A program made the position numbers and the translations under genes. This document shows, one piece after another, positions 26,373 through 42,185 of a stretch of DNA of 42,264 nt. The notes beneath the pieces are model-generated. The model had not been told where the DNA came from. It was given only the letters and a program-made list of their open reading frames with translations, and did no database searches. The stretch spans positions 1 through 42,264 of the forward strand of contig NZ_CAMZCS010000029.1 of assembly GCF_947305105.1 (NCBI RefSeq), in the 5' to 3' direction. The stretch's first letter is position 1, and the number at the start of each line of letters is the position of its first letter. This DNA comes from an uncultured Fibrobacter sp. GTDB taxonomy: Bacteria; Fibrobacterota; Fibrobacteria; Fibrobacterales; Fibrobacteraceae.

Positions 26373-26400
26373 AAAAAGGGCGCGCATTTTCTGCGCGCCC
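26373..26400 (-). terminator. Intrinsic terminator of phosphatase gene 1
   Basis: On minus, GGGCGCGCAG-AAA-TGCGCGCCC followed by TTTTT, 28 bp beyond the stop of the phosphatase gene. Confidence 0.88.
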
Positions 26401-26427
26401 CAAATGTTAACATTCCTAAACAAAGCC

Positions 26428-27891
26428 TTATTCAATGATGGTCATTTTACCTTCATCGAGGCCCTTGACCGCATAGAACACCTTGGTTCCGTCCGGTTTC
26501 AGGACCACCGCGATACCGGCAAGATAGTTCAGCCAGTGGTCTTCTGGAGACTCATAGTACCTCAAGTCAATTCGCCCTTCGGAAACATAGGACACAAGAG
26601 GAATGAGCATAATGTCGTGCGTGATGAACACGCCGATTGTCTTTCCGGAATTTTCCAGCGCCGGGATAATATGATCTTCAAGCAATTCAGAGCTTCTGGT
26701 CTTCAAATCGTAGAACGCATCGTCGTAGCCGCCTTCGAACGCCCATCTCGTCGTGACGCCCCTGCCATCATCATTTTCGTTGTAAAGGGCCATGTAGTAG
26801 GACATCTGGTTCTTTACAAACCAACCCTCGTTCAGCACTTTTATAGTATCGCCAAGCGTATCGGCGTCACCACGCCCTATGGCAATATTATTGTACGTCT
26901 GGTGAGTACGGATATATTCCGAACCCGCATAATAGATTTCCGGGCCACCCACCAACTTGGCCCCGAGCTGTTGGGACTGAAGCCTTCCGTTATCCGTCAG
27001 CGGTGTTTCCTTGCTAATCGTGTTCACGCGTTCGGCATGGCGCAACATCACCACCAACTTTTCACCCTCGGCGAGTCGTGCAAAGACACTATCGACCGGG
27101 GTAAAGTCACTGACCGCAGATTGAGTGACAAGCTGGCTGTTAATGACCCCCATCTTCTCTTGTTCAGTCGCTAAACGCCAAAGGAGCGTTCCGTTGTCGC
27201 AGTAGAAATAACGATCTTCGCCATTAATGGAGGCCACCTTGAGTTCGCCCTTAGTCGAGTCGTTACATGCGCCCAAGTAATCCTCCGGCCCATGGACAAC
27301 CACGCTATCCACGACATGGATACTGTCAATCACATTAATGCTATCCGTAATACGCAAGCTATCAATGATATTCAAACTGTCCACGATATAGATGCTATCA
27401 ATGACGTTCAAGCGAGTCGTCACGCGAAGGCTATCAATATAGCGCACGACATCCTTATAGCGAACACTATCGATAATGTTCAAGCTATCGACAATACGCA
27501 GACTATCTTTAATACGCAAGCCGTCAAGGTAGCGCGTCACTTCCCTATACTGGACGCTATCGACGATATGCAGGCTATCAATAATACGCACACTATCTCT
27601 AATGCGCAAACTGTCCAGATAACGAGTAACTTCATTATAACGGACACTATCAATGATATTCAAGCTATCCTTAATACGTACACTATCTTTAATACGCAAA
27701 CTATCGATATAACGGACGCTGTCTATCAGATTCACACTATCCCGAATCACGACCGAATCAGGGCCAGCAGAATCAGAAGCAACCGCATCCGTTTCTTCCA
27801 CGTTTACGGAAACATTTGTACTGTCTTCGCAGGCAGCAAAGAAAAAGACAAGCAGGGCGCTTGTCCATAATTTTAGAGTGAGTGATTTCAT
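26428..27891 (-). CDS. Stalked histidine-phosphatase lipoprotein 1
   Basis: 487-aa predicted lipoprotein (FFAAC, Cys21). The start at 27891 has AAGGAGT upstream; a longer frame from 27921 only translates that site. Residues 44-199 are about 26 hexapeptides of the form x-D-S-[VLI]-x-[IVY], probably a rigid extended stalk. A small Cys-containing segment (YFYCDNGTLLWR) follows. The C-terminal domain has the histidine phosphatase superfamily core: RHAER (284-288, where the family usually has RHG), a second Arg in YIRTHQT (Arg328) and the second His in THD (424-426). Such enzymes remove phosphate from small molecules or phytate through a phospho-His intermediate; the substrate here is unknown. It has its own promoter and terminator. 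Confidence 0.87.
   Translation of the reverse strand: MKSLTLKLWTSALLVFFFAACEDSTNVSVNVEETDAVASDSAGPDSVVIRDSVNLIDSVRYIDSLRIKDSVRIKDSLNIIDSVRYNEVTRYLDSLRIRDSVRIIDSLHIVDSVQYREVTRYLDGLRIKDSLRIVDSLNIIDSVRYKDVVRYIDSLRVTTRLNVIDSIYIVDSLNIIDSLRITDSINVIDSIHVVDSVVVHGPEDYLGACNDSTKGELKVASINGEDRYFYCDNGTLLWRLATEQEKMGVINSQLVTQSAVSDFTPVDSVFARLAEGEKLVVMLRHAERVNTISKETPLTDNGRLQSQQLGAKLVGGPEIYYAGSEYIRTHQTYNNIAIGRGDADTLGDTIKVLNEGWFVKNQMSYYMALYNENDDGRGVTTRWAFEGGYDDAFYDLKTRSSELLEDHIIPALENSGKTIGVFITHDIMLIPLVSYVSEGRIDLRYYESPEDHWLNYLAGIAVVLKPDGTKVFYAVKGLDEGKMTIIE
27295..27762 (-). repeat. Hexapeptide-coding repeats (18-bp period), gene 1
   Basis: About 26 in-frame copies of an 18-bp unit coding x-D-S-[VLI]-x-[IVY], with occasional degenerate units such as NEVTRY and TTRLNV. 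No frame break is seen. Confidence 0.88.
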
Positions 27892-27948
27892 TTTGTGCAG
27901 ACTCCTTTTTACCAACACCATTTGTCAGCAAGTTTAAGTTGTACACAA

Positions 27949-27977
27949 AATATACTTTAGTTGTAATGTGAAGTCAA
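27949..27977 (-). promoter_or_regulatory. Sigma70-type promoter of phosphatase gene 1
   Basis: On minus, TTGACT (27972-27977) and TATATT (27949-27954) are separated by exactly 17 bp. The leader is about 50 nt and begins with ACAACTTAAAC, shared with the leader of phosphatase gene 2. Confidence 0.75.
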
Positions 27978-28039
27978 TTTTTATCTACGCAGCTACACCA
28001 CAGATAAGGTAAAATTTTTATTAACAATTTATTTGTAAT

Positions 28040-28069
28040 ACACAGGCTATAATCTGCATAGCCCGTGTA
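28040..28069 (-). terminator. Hairpin downstream of phosphatase gene 2
   Basis: On minus, ACACGGGCTAT-GCAGATT... pairs with ATAGCCTGTGT (one G-T pair). It lies 13 bp after the stop at 28082 but lacks a T-run, so it could be a weak terminator or an RNA-stabilising hairpin. Confidence 0.5.
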
Positions 28070-28081
28070 ATTTACAAAATC

Positions 28082-29854
28082 CTACATCGTACCCGAATCA
28101 AGCCCCTTGACTGCATAGAACACCTTGGTTCCATCCGGCTTGATAACGACGGCAAAACCCGCAAGATAGTTCACCCAGCGATTTTTCGTAGACTCGTAAT
28201 ACTTCAAATCGATATTTCCATCGGAGACATACGCAATCAAAGGCAGGAGCATCACATCGTGCGAGACGAACACTCCTATCGACTTTCCGGATTTTTCCAA
28301 TGCAGGAATGAGATGATCTTCGATCAATTCAGAGCTCCTTTCGGCCAAATCGTAGAATGCATTGGTATATCCTCCCTCGTACGCCCATCTGGAGAGAAAC
28401 GCAAAGGCGCCCCCCGCCTGCCACTGGGCTGAATTGTAGGCATTCTGGTTCTTTATGAACCAGCCGTCATTCAACACAGACAAAGTATCAGCCAGCGTAT
28501 CGGCATCGCCGTGACCCTTGGCAATGTTGTTGCACGTCTGATGGGTACGGATGAATTGCGAACCCGCATAATAGATTTCCGCGCCACTCTTCAATTTAGC
28601 ACCAAGTTCATACGACTGGAGCTTTCCATTATCCGTAAGCGGGCCCGTCCTGGAATAATCGGAACCCCGTTCGGCATGGCGCACCATTATCACCACCTTT
28701 TCACCTTCGGCAAGCCCATTAACGATCGAGTCGAACGGAGTGAAATGCGTAACCGCGGATTGGGTCACAAAATAGCTGTCCAGGTCATGCCCGGCGGCAA
28801 TGCGCCAGAAGAGCGTACTCTTGTCGCAAACGTAATAACGATTTTCGCCGTTGATGGTGACAGTCTTAACCTCGCCTGCATTGGCTCGGCCGCACACGCC
28901 CAAGTATTCCTCCGGGCCATGGAAAACGATGCTGTCCACGACACGGGTACTGTCTTTGTAAAGAATGCTGTCTATCAAATTCAGGCTATCCCGAATGTAG
29001 AGGCTGTCGATGATATTCAGGCTATCCCGAATACGGATGCTGTCGATTACGTTCAAGCTGTCACGAATACGGATACTGTCAATCACGTTCAAGCTATCCT
29101 TTATACGGATGCTGTCTATAACATGTATGCTATCTGTAATACGAATGCTATCTACAATATGAACACTGTCAATTACATTCAGGCTGTCAATGATATGGAT
29201 GCTATCAACGACATGCAAACTGTCAACGATGTGGACGCTGTCAATGACATGCAAGCTGTCAACGATGTGGACGCTGTCAATGACATGCAGGCTGTCAATG
29301 ATGTGGACGCTGTCAATGACATGCAGGCTATCAACGATACGGATGCTATCGATGATATTCAGGCTGTCGGTAATGCGCAAACTGTCAAGGAATCGCGTAA
29401 CATCCTTATAACGAATGCTGTCGATGATATTCAAGCTGTCCGTGATGCGCAAGCTATCGACAAACCGAACAGCATCCTTATAGCGGACACTGTCGATGAT
29501 ATTCAAGCTGTCCGTAACACGCAGGCTATCGACGTAGCGGACGACATCCTTGTAACGAACGCTGTCGATGATGTTCAGGCTGTCCCGAATACGCAAGCTA
29601 TCCGTAATGCGCAAGCTGTCCAAAAAGCGAGTCACCTTCTCGTAGCGGATGCTATCGATAATATTCACGCTATCGGTAATTCGAACGCTATCTATATAAT
29701 TTACGCTGTCAATCCAGTTTATGCTATCACGGACAAGAACCGAATCAGCCGAAAGCTCATTTTCACCTTCCAGGCTAATTGCCGTGTCCTCGCAAGCAGT
29801 AAAAACAAGAGCGAACGAAGCGCTCAACAAGGCATTAAGGATTTTTGATTTCAT
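28082..29854 (-). CDS. Stalked histidine-phosphatase lipoprotein 2 (longest stalk)
   Basis: 590-aa predicted lipoprotein (FTAC, Cys21) when started at 29854; the ATG at 29863 is three codons upstream and cannot be excluded, since no good ribosome site is seen. Residues 36-311 are about 46 hexapeptide units (x-D-S-[VLI]-x-[IVY]). A run of very regular units (IDSVHI/VDSLHV) lies in the middle. The phosphatase domain has RHAER (392-396), FIRTHQT and SHD, all catalytic positions kept except Ala for Gly in RHG. It is close to phosphatase 1 in both catalytic domain and repeat style; the two clearly arose by duplication. Substrate unknown. Confidence 0.87.
   Translation of the reverse strand: MKSKILNALLSASFALVFTACEDTAISLEGENELSADSVLVRDSINWIDSVNYIDSVRITDSVNIIDSIRYEKVTRFLDSLRITDSLRIRDSLNIIDSVRYKDVVRYVDSLRVTDSLNIIDSVRYKDAVRFVDSLRITDSLNIIDSIRYKDVTRFLDSLRITDSLNIIDSIRIVDSLHVIDSVHIIDSLHVIDSVHIVDSLHVIDSVHIVDSLHVVDSIHIIDSLNVIDSVHIVDSIRITDSIHVIDSIRIKDSLNVIDSIRIRDSLNVIDSIRIRDSLNIIDSLYIRDSLNLIDSILYKDSTRVVDSIVFHGPEEYLGVCGRANAGEVKTVTINGENRYYVCDKSTLFWRIAAGHDLDSYFVTQSAVTHFTPFDSIVNGLAEGEKVVIMVRHAERGSDYSRTGPLTDNGKLQSYELGAKLKSGAEIYYAGSQFIRTHQTCNNIAKGHGDADTLADTLSVLNDGWFIKNQNAYNSAQWQAGGAFAFLSRWAYEGGYTNAFYDLAERSSELIEDHLIPALEKSGKSIGVFVSHDVMLLPLIAYVSDGNIDLKYYESTKNRWVNYLAGFAVVIKPDGTKVFYAVKGLDSGTM
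28922..29749 (-). repeat. Hexapeptide-coding repeats (18-bp period), gene 2
   Basis: About 46 in-frame 18-bp units. The stretch around 29150-29350 is the most uniform, with alternating near-identical 36-bp pairs, which suggests recent expansion. Confidence 0.9.
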
Positions 29855-29908
29855 TTGGCACATCTTTGTCGCTACCGCGACTAGGTAATTTTGTTTAAGT
29901 TGTGCGCA

Positions 29909-29937
29909 AATTTACTTTTTTCTTACAAAAATTTCAA
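29909..29937 (-). promoter_or_regulatory. Promoter of phosphatase gene 2
   Basis: On minus, TTGAAA (29932-29937) and TAAATT (29909-29914) are 17 bp apart. Just downstream, GCGCACAACTTAAAC resembles GTGTACAACTTAAAC at the same place in phosphatase gene 1. Confidence 0.6.
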
Positions 29938-29975
29938 GGCCTGTTTTACGTTTAGTTTAATTTACTTTATATTGA

Positions 29976-31283
29976 CTACGATGAGATTCTTCCGGCATCC
30001 AGGCCCTTGACGGCGTAGAAAACACGGGATCCGTCCGGTTTCAGAACGATGGCAAAACCAGCAAGATAATTCAGCCATTTTTTGGAATCGTAATACTTGA
30101 TGTCTATTTTCTTAGCCGAGATATACGCAACCAAAGGCATTATCAACAAATCATGCGTCGCAACGAACGCCACGTCCGTTCCAGCCCGCTCGGAAAATGG
30201 GATAGCCACCGAATCAATCCATTCGGAGCACCTCGGCTCAAAATCGTAAAACGCACTCGAATAGCTGTTCTCATAAGCCCACTTGGAAAGAACATACCAG
30301 CTACCTTTGCTGTTCTTTGCCGTATTGTAGGCATCAGTATCCTTCACATACCAGGATTCTCCCATATGGGAAAGCGTATCGACAGAGAGATCGACAAGGG
30401 TATCCACTCTTGCACGGCCTGCCGCGACATAGCGGCAAGTCTGCTGGGTGCGAATGGAACCCGAAGCTCCATAATGGTATTCTAGGTTGGAGGCCAGTTT
30501 TCCACCCAGTTCTTTTGCCTGCTGCACCCCGTTTGCATTCAAAGGTGTCCCAGATGCAGAATCAGTATTCCGCTCTGCATGGCGAATCACCACGACAAGT
30601 TTTTCGCCCTCTGCCAAAATGCCTGCAACCGAATCCAAACGGACAAACTTGGTCACCGCCGATTTTTGGACATAGTAGTTATTCACGTCGACATTGCTCG
30701 CCGCACGCCACATGACCGTTCCTTCGTCACATAAAAAATAGCGGAGTTCATCCTGAATAATAGCCGACTTGAGCGTTCCCTTGTTTTCTTGGCTGCATTT
30801 TCCCAGGAAATATTCCGGGTCCCGGACGGCAACACTGTCACGCACTTTCACGCTATCCACAACATGGACGCTGTCTCGCACCTTCACGCTGTCAATAATA
30901 CGGACACTATCCTTCACGTTCACACTGTCGATGATACGGACGCTGTCCTTCACGTTCACGCTGTCGATAATGTGGACGCTATCCTTTACATCTACGCTGT
31001 CAACGATGCGGACGCTATCTTTCACGACAACACTGTCTTTGATGCGGACGCTGTCTTTCACGTCTACGCTGTCAATGATGCGAACGCTATCCTTCACGAC
31101 AACGCTATCGATAATCCGGATACTATCGATCACGTTCACGCTATCATGAACGACGACCGAATCGCGCTCCCCCGCATCCGAACCTTTAGAATTTACAGAA
31201 GTTTCCGAATCATCACCGCAAGAATTAAGTAACGCCAGAATAGATAAACAGAACAGGATCTTGATTAATTTTCTCTTTCTCAT
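29976..31283 (-). CDS. Stalked histidine-phosphatase lipoprotein 3 (shortest stalk)
   Basis: 435-aa predicted lipoprotein (LLNSC, Cys22). Residues 40-153 are 19 regular hexapeptides (KDSVRI, IDSVDV and similar) without degenerate units. Phosphatase motifs: RHAER (234-238), SIRTQQT and THD (376-378). It begins 17 nt after the stop of the 771-aa gene upstream, with an A-rich spacer but no clear ribosome site, so it probably shares that transcript. The catalytic domain is related to genes 1 and 2 but more diverged. Confidence 0.87.
   Translation of the reverse strand: MRKRKLIKILFCLSILALLNSCGDDSETSVNSKGSDAGERDSVVVHDSVNVIDSIRIIDSVVVKDSVRIIDSVDVKDSVRIKDSVVVKDSVRIVDSVDVKDSVHIIDSVNVKDSVRIIDSVNVKDSVRIIDSVKVRDSVHVVDSVKVRDSVAVRDPEYFLGKCSQENKGTLKSAIIQDELRYFLCDEGTVMWRAASNVDVNNYYVQKSAVTKFVRLDSVAGILAEGEKLVVVIRHAERNTDSASGTPLNANGVQQAKELGGKLASNLEYHYGASGSIRTQQTCRYVAAGRARVDTLVDLSVDTLSHMGESWYVKDTDAYNTAKNSKGSWYVLSKWAYENSYSSAFYDFEPRCSEWIDSVAIPFSERAGTDVAFVATHDLLIMPLVAYISAKKIDIKYYDSKKWLNYLAGFAIVLKPDGSRVFYAVKGLDAGRISS
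30825..31166 (-). repeat. Hexapeptide-coding repeats (18-bp period), gene 3
   Basis: Nineteen in-frame 18-bp units coding x-D-S-V-x-[IV], more uniform than those in genes 1 and 2. Confidence 0.9.
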
Positions 31284-31300: not shown

Positions 31301-33616
31301 CTACAAGGTCATTGTTCCCGAGGCCAAGCCCTTGACAGGCACATAGCGAGCAATCCCATTCGAGTCCAGTATAATGGCAACACCTGCCAAATAGTTAATC
31401 CACTGCTTTGTATCAAAGTAACGCAGATTGACTTTCTTGCTCGTGGCATAAACCGCCAACGGGACAACCAACATGTCGTGGGAAATCCAAACACCAATGC
31501 GGTTGATATCGGCAAATCGCGGCATCACGACCGTATTTATGAATTCTTCGCCACGTTTATCCAAATCATAGAAAGCATCGCTATACTTGCCCTGGTAAGC
31601 ATAAGCCGAAGTCACGACCCAGCCACCACCATCGGAGCTCTTATAGTTTTCCAGCCTTGAGTCGTCTTTCACGAACCAGGCGCCATCCAATTCCTCGATA
31701 GTGTTTTCGGTAAACGTCAACCCGGCACCCGTCGCAAAATTCTCCGCAGTTTCCTTGCTTCTCGTGTAAGTCGAGTTCGCAAAACTGATACTTTCGCCCT
31801 TCAACTTGGCGCCCACTGACTGCGACTGCTTCTTGCCGTTGTCGGTCAAGTGACCGGTTTTGCCGGTATCGTCGGTACGTTCCCCGTGGCGCAGGATGAA
31901 GATAACCTTCTCGCCAGGAGCAACCGTCGCAAGCACATCGGCGATATCCTCGAACGGGGTTACGTCGGCAGCGGTCGCTTCGCGCCAAATACGCTTGCTC
32001 TGTTCGTAAACGTAAGACTTGTCCGTATTTATTTTCCCGTTACGGATCTGGCCGGCGTAGGTCCCGGGCCCAAAGCCCACCGTATCTTTTTCAATGTCGG
32101 TGGCCACGCGCCAAGACTTGAGCGTATTGTCACAGATGAAGCGAATCTTGGGGCTATCCGGATGGTCGTAGTACGGAGCGAAATAAGCACTGAGGCTCGT
32201 GTTCACGTTCTTGACCTGGCCCGCCGTATAGGAATTGCAGGTCTCAAAGCCGTAAACCTTAGACCAGAAATTGCGCAAATGCTTTTCGAAATCGGGAGCG
32301 TCGCCCCTGCCCCACGAGGCAAAGACCTGGCGAATCTTATCGTAGCCGCCACTTGCATCCAACTCCATGAGCCAGTCCGCCAAGTCCGCACGGGCGTTGT
32401 TGTCGTCCCAGTTGCCATTGCCCTTGATGCGTTCGGCAATACCGTTGGCATAGCTTACCATCTCGTGACCGGAGCCCTTGCGCTGCATCATGATTGAAAT
32501 CGCAAGCAAGGCCGCACTATACTCATCGCCACCAAAAAGGTTCACCTCGTCTGCCGTGACCGAAGAGCCCGAAGCCGTAGTGGTATGAGTGTGGCCACCA
32601 CCCCAGCTACCGCCACCATTATTTCCACCGCCGCCAAAGAACCAACCGCCGTTGTTGCCCCCGCCACTGCTTCCACTACCGCCACCGAGATCGATGTTGA
32701 ACGCAGAGAGCACATCCTTGAGCGCCTGCGCCTTCATGCTCCGGATAGGCTGGTTGAACCCGGAATTTTCGACGAGTTTCATGAGGCGCGGAGATTCCAG
32801 GTGAGTCAGCATGTTGACGTTCACAGAATCACGTTCGGTCAAATCAGTCACAGAATGGAGCGTGACCATCGACGTCGAGAGCCCGCCCGAAAGTTCGTTA
32901 CGGAAATACCCGTTCACCTCGACGCGCACATACGGGGAGACCAGGTTCACTCCCGGGAACGCATAGCTGCCGTCACCCGAGGCAATGCAGGTTTCGTGCG
33001 TCCGCCTAGAATCGGCCATGCGCTTTGCGCTGTCCAGTTCAATAATCTTGACCGAAGCCCCATAGCGGAACGGCCCCTTCTGAGCGGCACCCGCAACCGG
33101 GACAGCCACCCTGCGGTACGTCCCCGCAAGTGCCGGGTCTTCGACTTCGGCAGCGTCACTCGCCGTAAACGGATCCACCGTCAAATTGCCATCTGCGCAA
33201 GTCGCCTTCACAATACCGATTACAGAAGTCCGCCATTCACCATTGATGCAGAAATACAAGTCGCTGGCTTCGTCGACCAAGAAGGTTTCGCCCTCGTTTT
33301 GCGCGGTGCAAGGCGGAAGTTCCTTTTTTGTGCTCACGACGCTTGTATCGACGACTATGGTTTCAAGGTCAGGAGGGTTCACACCCGAATGGTTGACAGA
33401 ATCCACCTTATTCTGATTTTCCCAAGGATTTTTGGAATCCGACGAGCCCTTCTTAGAACTGCTTGAGTACCCTTGCCTGTGACTGTGATGCCCCGTACGG
33501 GTCGAATCTGCATCTTTACTTTCTGAAAATTCCTCTTCCTCCGGAGAGTACGACTTGTCGTCTCCACACGAAATTGCCAACAAGGCAATAAGGAATAAGG
33601 AACATAATTTCTTCAT
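31301..33616 (-). CDS. Histidine-phosphatase lipoprotein with QKGP region (no stalk)
   Basis: 771-aa predicted lipoprotein (AISC, Cys17). A Ser/Lys-rich linker and a CTAQNEGE module (about 103-126) precede AGAAQKGPFRYG (about 176-186), the same region found in the FISUMP lipoproteins. It continues through NGYFRNELSGG and VNVNMLTHLESPRL. A Gly/Asn-rich insertion with HTHTTT lies at about 311-350. The phosphatase domain follows, with the classical RHGER (576-580), TYTRSKET and SHD (712-714). It thus joins the lipoprotein N-terminal architecture of operons A-D to the phosphatase of the stalked genes. Promoter at 33626-33654; the ATG is about two bases from the expected transcription start, so the mRNA is near leaderless. 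Confidence 0.88.
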   Translation of the reverse strand: MKKLCSLFLIALLAISCGDDKSYSPEEEEFSESKDADSTRTGHHSHRQGYSSSSKKGSSDSKNPWENQNKVDSVNHSGVNPPDLETIVVDTSVVSTKKELPPCTAQNEGETFLVDEASDLYFCINGEWRTSVIGIVKATCADGNLTVDPFTASDAAEVEDPALAGTYRRVAVPVAGAAQKGPFRYGASVKIIELDSAKRMADSRRTHETCIASGDGSYAFPGVNLVSPYVRVEVNGYFRNELSGGLSTSMVTLHSVTDLTERDSVNVNMLTHLESPRLMKLVENSGFNQPIRSMKAQALKDVLSAFNIDLGGGSGSSGGGNNGGWFFGGGGNNGGGSWGGGHTHTTTASGSSVTADEVNLFGGDEYSAALLAISIMMQRKGSGHEMVSYANGIAERIKGNGNWDDNNARADLADWLMELDASGGYDKIRQVFASWGRGDAPDFEKHLRNFWSKVYGFETCNSYTAGQVKNVNTSLSAYFAPYYDHPDSPKIRFICDNTLKSWRVATDIEKDTVGFGPGTYAGQIRNGKINTDKSYVYEQSKRIWREATAADVTPFEDIADVLATVAPGEKVIFILRHGERTDDTGKTGHLTDNGKKQSQSVGAKLKGESISFANSTYTRSKETAENFATGAGLTFTENTIEELDGAWFVKDDSRLENYKSSDGGGWVVTSAYAYQGKYSDAFYDLDKRGEEFINTVVMPRFADINRIGVWISHDMLVVPLAVYATSKKVNLRYFDTKQWINYLAGVAIILDSNGIARYVPVKGLASGTMTL

Positions 33617-33676: not shown

Positions 33677-35836
33677 TTACCATCCCTGGAAATAGCCAGA
33701 TTTTAGCCCTTTAAAGGCTACATAGCGACGATTTCCGGATTTATCCCAGATAATAGCGATTCCGGCAAGGTAATTAATCCACGTTCCGCCGTCTTTCACG
33801 TTCATGTTAATATTCAAATCTGAGCAGTAGGCGACAAACGGAACCATCAGCTTGTCATGCGAACTGAGCATGATGAACCTTTCGGGGACCGTATCGTATT
33901 TGGCGAGCAAAACATCTTCGATCAATTCGGCGGAGCGGTCCTTCAAGTTGTAGTATGCGACCGTTTCTGCGCCATCGGTGTAGGCGCCGTTGTACACATA
34001 AAGGCCGATTGCCTCCCAGCCACCACCGGAAGCATTTTCCACCTTGTTCACCGTATCACGGTTGACCATGTACCAGTCGTCGTTCAACTCGGGGAAAGTA
34101 TCAGCAATCGTCGTATCCTGGCCACGCCCGAGAGCAATCGAAATAACCGTCTGCTGCGCACGGTAGAACTCGGAAGCCCCGAGACGGAAATCCTCTTTAT
34201 GTTTCTTTAGCTTGGCTCCGACTTCCTTGGATTCCTGAACCCCCTTACTGGTCAAGGGCCCTTCCCTACTCACAATGTCCTTGTCGCGTTCACCATGGCG
34301 GAGCAGGAAAATCACCTTCTCGTCGTCCTTGATTCCATCATAGACTTTCTGAATATCGACAAAGTCGGTAATGGCGGACTTCTTGACAAAGTAGGCGTCA
34401 CGTTCGGCACGGGAAGACACCACACGCCAACTGCTACTGGCCGCATTGTAGGTGTAGACAATTCCTGCATTGACAAGGCCCTGGCGAGTTTCGCCATCCT
34501 GGCCGGCACCAAACCCGTAAGTGTCCTTTTCCTTGTCCGTCGCTTCGCGCCAGGCTCCCGAACTCTCGTCGCACACGAAGCGATCCATCGTGACCGATAC
34601 ATCGGAATCGTCCGCAGCATAATACTTGCTGAACTTATTTTTCGCATGGACGACAGCGCCATAGCTTTCGGCAGCGCAGGCTTCTATCCCCAATTCTGCC
34701 AGGTAGAAGGCCCTGATGTACTTTTCAAAACCAGGTACAGAGGCAAGCCCAATTTTTTCCACATTCTTATGGACGGTCTCGAATTCATCGTTGACATCCA
34801 CGCCAAACGCCCAGTCTGCAATTTTAGCACGGGCAGAGGAATCCTTCCAAGAACCATCCGCGAAGTCAGCGGCCACCTTCCACAAGTTCGCAGCAGTATC
34901 GTTTGCAACAGCCTGCATCATGATCGTCACGGCCAAGAGAGCGGCACCCGCTTCGCCAGCAGCAAACGACGTCACCGAATCAACCGAGCCCAAACCGGCC
35001 TTGTCGAAATGGAACGCCTTCCAGACGGCGTCAGACGCCTTTTGGGAAGCCTTCCCCACAGTCGTCGATTCGGACGACTTCAAAAGGTGTTGCATGTAAA
35101 CGGACTTGAGATACGTAAGGACGTTGACATTGGCTTCGCCGCCCTTTCCCTGAGCATTCACGAGTGCATACAAGGTGTCTTTCATCGTTATCGAGCCGCC
35201 ATGCACCAAGTCGGTGACCTTGCCGAAAACACTCGCACGCGCATAAGGAGGGAGGAACGTCACGTTTGCAGCCGAATAGGCCCCATCTTTCGCAGAAATC
35301 GTTGCAGGGAAACTGCTCCCGGTCTTCTTGAAACTCTCATCCAGGACTTCCACAACAACGGAACTCCTAGAATCGAAGATGCCATAGCCGAACGAGCCCG
35401 TGACCATGACATTTTCCAATTTCGAAGGATCCTTATCGTCTGTGTTGGACGGATCCGTCTGCACGACTTCGGAAGTATCGTGGCGTTGCGTAGAATCGCC
35501 AACAGTCGAATTCTGATTCAAGGAATCTGTAGACGTCGCCGTGTCCTGATGCGAGACAAAAGAACCCTGGCCAAGGGAATCCGTCTTCGCCGGTTCTACA
35601 GAAGAACTGTCCAAAACCTTGGCCCAGCCATCGGCCCCACAAATATACTGGACGCCATCCAAAGAATCGACAGCCCCAACGCTCGTGGAATCGCACAGGC
35701 GCATCTCGTACTTCGAATCGGAGCCACTAGTACTGTCATCACCACACGACACAAAGAAACACAATGTACAAACACCGTACACTGCAAGACCCAAGGCCTT
35801 CAATCCCATGAGTTTACCCATGCAATACTTTGACAT
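33677..35836 (-). CDS. Histidine-phosphatase lipoprotein with diverged QKGP-like region
   Basis: 719-aa predicted lipoprotein (FFVSC, Cys31). The start at 35836 follows AAGGAT by five bases; the frame extends to 35902 without support. Residues about 35-70 form a small Cys module (MRLCDST, YICGADGW). A Ser/Thr/Asp-rich linker follows. The next region (VMVTGSFGYGIF... VNVLTYLKS) aligns with the QKGP region of the 771-aa protein but has lost QKGP itself. The phosphatase domain has RHGER (513-517), FYRAQQT and SHD, all catalytic residues intact. Related to the 771-aa neighbour over its whole length. Confidence 0.86.
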   Translation of the reverse strand: MSKYCMGKLMGLKALGLAVYGVCTLCFFVSCGDDSTSGSDSKYEMRLCDSTSVGAVDSLDGVQYICGADGWAKVLDSSSVEPAKTDSLGQGSFVSHQDTATSTDSLNQNSTVGDSTQRHDTSEVVQTDPSNTDDKDPSKLENVMVTGSFGYGIFDSRSSVVVEVLDESFKKTGSSFPATISAKDGAYSAANVTFLPPYARASVFGKVTDLVHGGSITMKDTLYALVNAQGKGGEANVNVLTYLKSVYMQHLLKSSESTTVGKASQKASDAVWKAFHFDKAGLGSVDSVTSFAAGEAGAALLAVTIMMQAVANDTAANLWKVAADFADGSWKDSSARAKIADWAFGVDVNDEFETVHKNVEKIGLASVPGFEKYIRAFYLAELGIEACAAESYGAVVHAKNKFSKYYAADDSDVSVTMDRFVCDESSGAWREATDKEKDTYGFGAGQDGETRQGLVNAGIVYTYNAASSSWRVVSSRAERDAYFVKKSAITDFVDIQKVYDGIKDDEKVIFLLRHGERDKDIVSREGPLTSKGVQESKEVGAKLKKHKEDFRLGASEFYRAQQTVISIALGRGQDTTIADTFPELNDDWYMVNRDTVNKVENASGGGWEAIGLYVYNGAYTDGAETVAYYNLKDRSAELIEDVLLAKYDTVPERFIMLSSHDKLMVPFVAYCSDLNINMNVKDGGTWINYLAGIAIIWDKSGNRRYVAFKGLKSGYFQGW

Positions 35837-35914
35837 ATCGTATCCTTGCCGATAAAGCCAACAGAGCATCCCAAAAACCAAGCCTTGGACCGGTTCAGTC
35901 AAAAGCTCGCTAAA

Positions 35915-37486: not shown

Positions 37487-37624
37487 AGTGGTTGGTGGTT
37501 AGTGATTAGTGGTTAGTGATTGGTGGTTAGTGATTAGTGATTGGTGGTTACCAATCACTGTTTACTGTTTACTAATCACTGTTTACTGTTTACTAACCAC
37601 TGTTCACTGTTTACTATTTACTAT
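37487..37624. repeat. Heptanucleotide repeats forming a long imperfect inverted repeat
   Basis: Left arm 37487-37550 consists of units such as AGTGGTT, GGTGGTT and AGTGATT. Right arm 37551-37624 consists of the opposite-strand type (CCAATCA, CTGTTTA, CTAATCA, CTAACCA). The two arms can pair as a long imperfect hairpin. It lies between the divergent CoA-transferase and GtrA-like genes. Confidence 0.85.
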
Positions 37625-42111: not shown

Positions 42112-42185
42112 GAGAGATAGTAGACAGTAGGAAGTAGACAGTAGGAAGTAGACAGTAGACAGTAGGCAGTGGTTAGTGGTTAGGA
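42112..42185. repeat. Heptanucleotide repeat tract upstream of clpP
   Basis: About ten seven-base units (AGACAGT, AGGAAGT, AGGCAGT, GGTTAGT) in one direction. The remainder of 42022-42264 shows a short GC-rich palindrome (GCCGC/GCGGC, 42085-42097) and no gene. Confidence 0.8.

Follow-up and report, generated by a model that had tools for sequence, protein, structure and literature searches.

Fibrobacter degrades plant fibre with surface-held enzymes and, to our knowledge, the way in which its surface proteins are anchored and spaced is poorly known. A contig of an uncultured Fibrobacter sp. (NZ_CAMZCS010000029.1), analysed here over its whole length of 42,264 nt (the window), raises this question in a compact form. 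Three neighbouring genes, g1, g2 and g3, encode lipoproteins in which a run of hexapeptides separates the lipid anchor from a phosphatase-like domain, with a different number of units in each. What is this repeat, how might it fold and why does each gene have its own length?

The three genes belong to a cluster of five paralogues arranged head-to-tail on the minus strand in the order g5 to g1 (Table 1). All five match PF00300, weakly in the case of g1, and the stalk is present in g1, g2 and g3 and absent from g4 and g5. Judging from its sequence, the hairpin downstream of g1 is the probable end of a g5–g1 transcription unit. Orthologous loci occur in rumen Fibrobacter MAGs. A search with g2 gave matches at 13 places in the source genome, several of them in other clusters, indicating an expansion of the histidine-phosphatase lipoprotein family in Fibrobacter. 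Elsewhere in the window, arrays of 7-bp units (AGTGGTT/ACTGTTT, AGACAGT) lie between genes at 37487–37622, where they form an inverted pair, and at 42115–42170. The genome contains the 16-mer AGACAGTAGACAGTAG 20 times and its reversed control zero times, so that this 16-mer represents a dispersed repeat family.

Table 1. Features of the g1–g5 cluster (positions in the window).
Feature	Position	Strand	Description	Basis or remark
Terminator-like hairpin, strong, directly 3' of g1	26377..26401	-	10 pairs, 8 G-C, then T run	Consensus match only
g1	26428..27921	-	497 aa; lipoprotein, 26 hexads, histidine-phosphatase-like C-terminal domain	ORF, PF00300, lipobox FFAAC
g1 stalk	27292..27765	-	Residues 53-210, 26 units	Phase unbroken
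g2	28082..29863	-	593 aa; lipoprotein, 46 hexads, histidine-phosphatase-like C-terminal domain	ORF, PF00300, lipobox FTAC
g2 C-terminal domain	28085..28918	-	YLGxC segment and His_Phos_1; RHAER, RTHQT, SHD motifs	Alignments, Pfam
g2 stalk	28919..29752	-	Residues 38-315, 46 units	First 22 conserved between species, rest rewritten
g3	29976..31283	-	435 aa; lipoprotein, 19 hexads, histidine-phosphatase-like C-terminal domain	ORF, PF00300, lipobox LNSC-GDD
g3 stalk	30825..31169	-	Residues 39-153, 19 units	Clear 12-residue super-period
g4, stalkless paralogue	31301..33616	-	PF00300 C-terminal domain	Lipobox AISC-GDDK
g5, stalkless paralogue	33677..35902	-	PF00300 C-terminal domain	

In g1–g3 the stalk follows the lipobox cysteine and a short polar stretch and precedes the histidine-phosphatase-like domain. 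The first-pass annotation had counted 19, about 26 and about 46 uninterrupted hexapeptides in three such lipoproteins, and these numbers proved exact. The D-S-[VLI] motif recurs at a spacing of 6 or 12 residues everywhere, with zero phase breaks in the three proteins. The hexad consensus is [IV/Y]-x-D-S-[VLI]-x: Asp occupies position 3 in 87/91 hexads and Ser position 4 in 82/91, while hydrophobic residues are found at position 1 in 95–98% and at position 5 in 92–100% of hexads. Position 1 is I or V, with Y or F at intervals in g1 and g2, position 2 is variable, position 5 is V, L or I and position 6 is mostly R, N or H. Since a few hexads of g1 and g2 (YKDVTR/YKDVVR type) lack the Ser, x-D-S-V-x-I is a consensus and not an invariant motif. 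A 12-residue super-period, with unit similarity at lags 2 and 4 above that at lags 1 and 3, is present in g2 and g3 (reached by 0/2000 shuffles) and weak in g1, whose value 162/2000 shuffles reach. The same analysis of unit similarity by lag with a shuffle test revealed no 18-residue period. In the DNA, TRF reports a 36-bp period with 85% matches at 29166–29368, the best of the stalk arrays in the window, which bears out the earlier observation that the 18-bp repeats are most uniform in the middle of g2. Because 19–46 consecutive in-phase units are common to other species under purifying selection, a chance origin is ruled out. Long plus-strand ORFs opposite the stalks (27292–27870, 28511–29848, 30789–31232) are by-products of the 18-bp DNA period. 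Such opposite-strand frames are prone to mis-annotation, and the same effect gives false tblastn matches on other repeat genes. No model in Pfam or NCBIfam names the hexapeptide, as the first-pass annotation had supposed, and none of the papers covered by a literature search describes it. Matches to RIG-I_C, MgtE_N, DUF7450, LED_rpt and a LIM-protein PDB chain (9e5c) were judged compositional.

The C-terminal domains share the RHAER, RTHQT/RTQQT and [ST]HD motifs with histidine phosphatase superfamily branch 1 (PF00300), a family that itself has neither the lipid anchor nor the stalk found in g1–g3. Against the gathering cut-off of 21.7 bits, g3 (E 1.4e-7, 31.8 bits) and g2 (E 1e-4, 22.5 bits) score above and g1 (E 0.0014, 18.8 bits), taken alone, below; all 15 of the aligned members match at E <= 0.1. 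R234-H235, R278 and H377 (g3 numbering) are invariant in the 15 sequences; from the family, we take them to be the catalytic Arg-His, the second Arg and the second His. The domain may be catalytically active. Among named models PmrG/Ais and SixA come closest, but scores lie far under the cut-off of every named subfamily, and a phmmer search for a PDB relative of the domain returned none. At the other end of the proteins, a lipobox Cys after a short hydrophobic signal (FFAAC in g1, FTAC in g2, LNSC in g3) marks them as bacterial lipoproteins of the signal peptidase II type and is likewise invariant in the 15 sequences. The residues following the Cys are C-GDDSE in g3, C-GDDK in g4, C-EDS in g1 and C-EDT in g2. 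In Bacteroidetes, lipoproteins are exported to the surface by signals such as SDDDD or SDDFE, in which a polar residue precedes acidic ones at +2 to +6 (PMC5080379). The C-GDD starts of g3 and g4 are similar to these signals, and g1 and g2 fit less well. Should the signal also hold in Fibrobacterota, this likeness would make it possible that the phosphatase domains are exposed on the cell surface; the alternative would be a periplasmic location.

Identical hexapeptides within one gene mostly differ at 2–5 synonymous positions per 18 bases, and dN/dS between species is 0.12 in the g1 stalk, 0.07 in that of g3 and 0.07 in the first 22 units of g2, rough values since saturation affects the synonymous changes at several positions and individual units in the middle of g3 are not strict orthologues of one another. 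Together these results rule out recent slippage, except in mid-g2, where VIDSVH stands in three identical copies. The Asp and Ser of the hexads are almost unchanged between species in the dN/dS analysis. Mean unit-to-unit DNA identity over lags 1–8 is 0.49–0.78 in all copies except the L080 copy at the place of g1, where it is lower. As judged from these comparisons, the repeats are old, under strong purifying selection at the protein level and kept for the protein that they encode.

The annotation had also suggested that stalk length may change between strains. We counted units in the window and in six related species with orthologues, i.e. in species-level genomes. The g2 stalk has 46, 43, 43, 45, 41, 45 and 43 units (range 41–46) and that of g3 19, 19, 19, 19, 18, 20 and 17 (range 17–20), so that length does vary between species and the suggestion is borne out in part; g1, by contrast, has 26 units in 5/6 genomes counted and also in G112, and none of the stalks behaves as a hypervariable slippage array. 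The copy at the g1 place in L080, with about 20 phase-shifted units, may be a paralogue. Middle units are rewritten between species in both g2 and g3 while unit numbers stay near each gene's own value, and the C-terminal domains are 87–98% identical. In g2, units 1–22 are conserved and later ones rewritten, yet the total is nearly unchanged, suggesting, without proving, that stalk length is under selection. Stalks of other Fibrobacter phosphatases have about 8–20 units, placing that of g2 among the longest found. Units are gained or lost singly in the species comparison, not in threes. Phase departures in other stalks comprise 17 even gaps (8, 10, 14) and 7 odd ones (5, 7, 13), although several are common by descent and the independent events are few; some of the odd gaps lie at stalk ends or within a helix-like variant. 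Even gaps should prevail if the alternation of side chains, as along a strand, is the feature that counts. Two shorter g1-like paralogue stalks with phase shifts (VVTRILDS), at L080 7187–8350 and L099 1309–2649, would be useful to trace unit loss.

The strongest argument for a spacer role, which the first reading had put forward, is that the same stalk carries unrelated domains. A 54-position stalk profile (A1) matches 96/168 Fibrobacterota genomes searched (E <= 1e-4), and some of these matches are to IADSLR, a variant of more helical character. The stalk stands beside Fib_succ_major (FISUMP; L058, L071, L084), a CotH kinase domain (L085), a PKD domain (L051) and an FGE-sulfatase domain (L083, L090, L101). 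On such domains the lipobox usually adjoins the stalk, an arrangement seen ahead of the FISUMP, CotH kinase and PKD domains. A TIGR02171 lipoprotein carries a degenerate stalk, and in a GH10 xylanase (L086 2770–5160, minus strand) LDSL hexads form an internal linker that joins the catalytic part to a T9SS-like tail at the C-terminus. In a sample of 392 genomes of relatives reaching beyond the phylum, a single non-Fibrobacterota genome (G170) matches at E <= 1e-6. Its IDS hexads (L103 = G170:C15, L104 = G170:C9) adjoin GNVGIGTTSP-type fibre-like sequence, and may be convergent or a pointer to a fibre fold. Searches of phages and plasmids yielded no convincing match, the Haliscomenobacter and Legionella plasmid matches lying on the strand opposite the annotated genes, and a scan of viral contigs returned nothing.

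Taken together, the stalk is, in our judgement, rather probably a beta-structured modular spacer that holds a phosphatase-like or other domain off the probable outer membrane at a length proper to each gene. The lipidated N-terminus would serve as an anchor, probably in the outer membrane; from it the stalk, presumably rigid, would rise, and the far end of the stalk would bear the phosphatase-like domain or, in other genes, FISUMP, CotH or another domain. With a characteristic stalk length for each gene, three related enzymes would stand at three distances from the membrane, if distance is what matters.

Several folds were weighed for such a spacer. Neither heptads nor hendecads fit a six-residue unit whose positions 1 and 5 are hydrophobic, which rules out a coiled coil of either kind, in line with the beta pattern of alternating hydrophobic positions that the first-pass annotation had recognised. 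AlphaFold2 places a strand of 3–4 residues in each hexad (EEEE--) in both runs, with low-to-moderate confidence. For g3 with the 15-sequence alignment, mean pLDDT is 42.8 (25–42 in the stalk, one short strand per hexad); this alignment is too shallow, as the phosphatase domain is also poorly predicted. The g2 stalk alone gives a beta-solenoid with a mean pLDDT of 55.9 and 70–79 in the middle. Since AlphaFold2 yields confident, unrealistic solenoids for repeat sequences (PMC11795689), the models offer weak support for beta structure. The combination of disorder throughout with a constant unit number, which would have spoken against the first reading, was not found, but the fold is weakly predicted.

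A monomeric right-handed beta-solenoid with ~3 hexads per turn is a tentative candidate. It is the fold of the single-sequence AlphaFold2 model of the g2 stalk, which VIA-align pairs best with right-handed beta-helices at 3–4 A rmsd (tapirin 6n2c, Z 15.7; RTX antifreeze 3p4g, Z 13.2), and such a stalk would be about 3–7 nm long if every 18 residues add 4.8 A. Foldseek gave zero matches at E <= 0.001. Against the solenoid speak the lack of an 18-residue period, lag-3 similarity not being raised and lags 2 and 4 being highest in g2 and g3 (stacking may, however, favour unlike neighbours), the change of units singly and not in threes, and the bias of AlphaFold2 for repeats.

Single-hexad gain or loss would do no harm in an oligomeric beta-fibre, whether a homotrimer or another assembly; an example is a triple-stranded beta-helix with one hexad per chain per layer. 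At 4.8 A per hexad, 19, 26 and 46 hexads would span ~9, 12 and 22 nm. We regard this arrangement as somewhat doubtful: the IDS hexads beside GNVGIGTTSP-type sequence in the unrelated genome (L103, L104) are in its favour, whereas the likeness of that sequence to fibre proteins is our presumption, and it has zero Pfam matches. A bolder reading, in which the hexads form a fibre with a fold unseen in solved structures, such as a hexad-based oligomeric beta-fibre serving as an interchangeable Fibrobacterota stalk with its length selected per enzyme, appears unlikely. Even less probable is an extended or disordered low-complexity linker, comparable to Ser-rich or Pro-Thr linkers; the low AlphaFold2 confidence with the alignment and the biased composition of the repeats agree with it, but every hexad position is under strong selection, the phase is strict over 276 residues and branched hydrophobic residues are abundant.

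A left-handed parallel beta-helix of the hexapeptide acyltransferase type is very improbable: LpxD, NeuD, GlmU and eIF2B-epsilon LbH models match the stalk weakly and I-x-D-S-V resembles I-G-D-N-V, but 0/91 hexads fit [LIV]-[GAED]-x2-[STAV]-x, position 2 being almost never G, A, E or D, and superposing the g2 model on LbH chains leaves an rmsd of about 12 A. In common with LpxA, LpxD and GlmU the stalk has the six-residue period, hydrophobic residues at i and i+4 and weak profile matches; unlike them it departs from the motif at i+1 and often at i+4, lacks the 18-residue period and is no enzyme in its own right. Alpha/beta coiled coils built of hexads or nonads also have a six-residue repeat. 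The hexad form was predicted as a minimal fibre, and its spacing was not found by the authors, who give as rules beta1 and beta2 hydrophobic, beta3 D/N/S/T, e K/R and g D/E/Q (PMC4786415). It is ruled out here, since even the best register has K/R at e in 0–4% and D/E/Q at g in 0–11% of hexads, and a hydrophobic residue would fall on f.

Repeat stalks as such are of a kind already known. Periscope Proteins and fibrillar adhesins likewise project a functional domain from the bacterial surface on a tandem-repeat stalk, but their repeats are folded domains with high DNA identity and fast change in repeat number (PMC8201768). Here the unit has six residues, the highly similar DNA repeats were not found (identity 0.49–0.78, i.e. 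about 0.5–0.78) and the unit number is nearly constant between species, g1 near constant and g2 and g3 differing by 1–5 units among species-level genomes. What is new here is that one stalk serves unrelated domains across the phylum, that there is evidence for selection on it, that each gene has a length of its own and that two known hexad folds fail to describe it. An interchangeable stalk found across the phylum would explain part of the surface architecture by a simple building block of countable length. The paralogues with 19, 26 and 46 units in one operon-like cluster offer a natural test of whether the distance from the membrane is selected.
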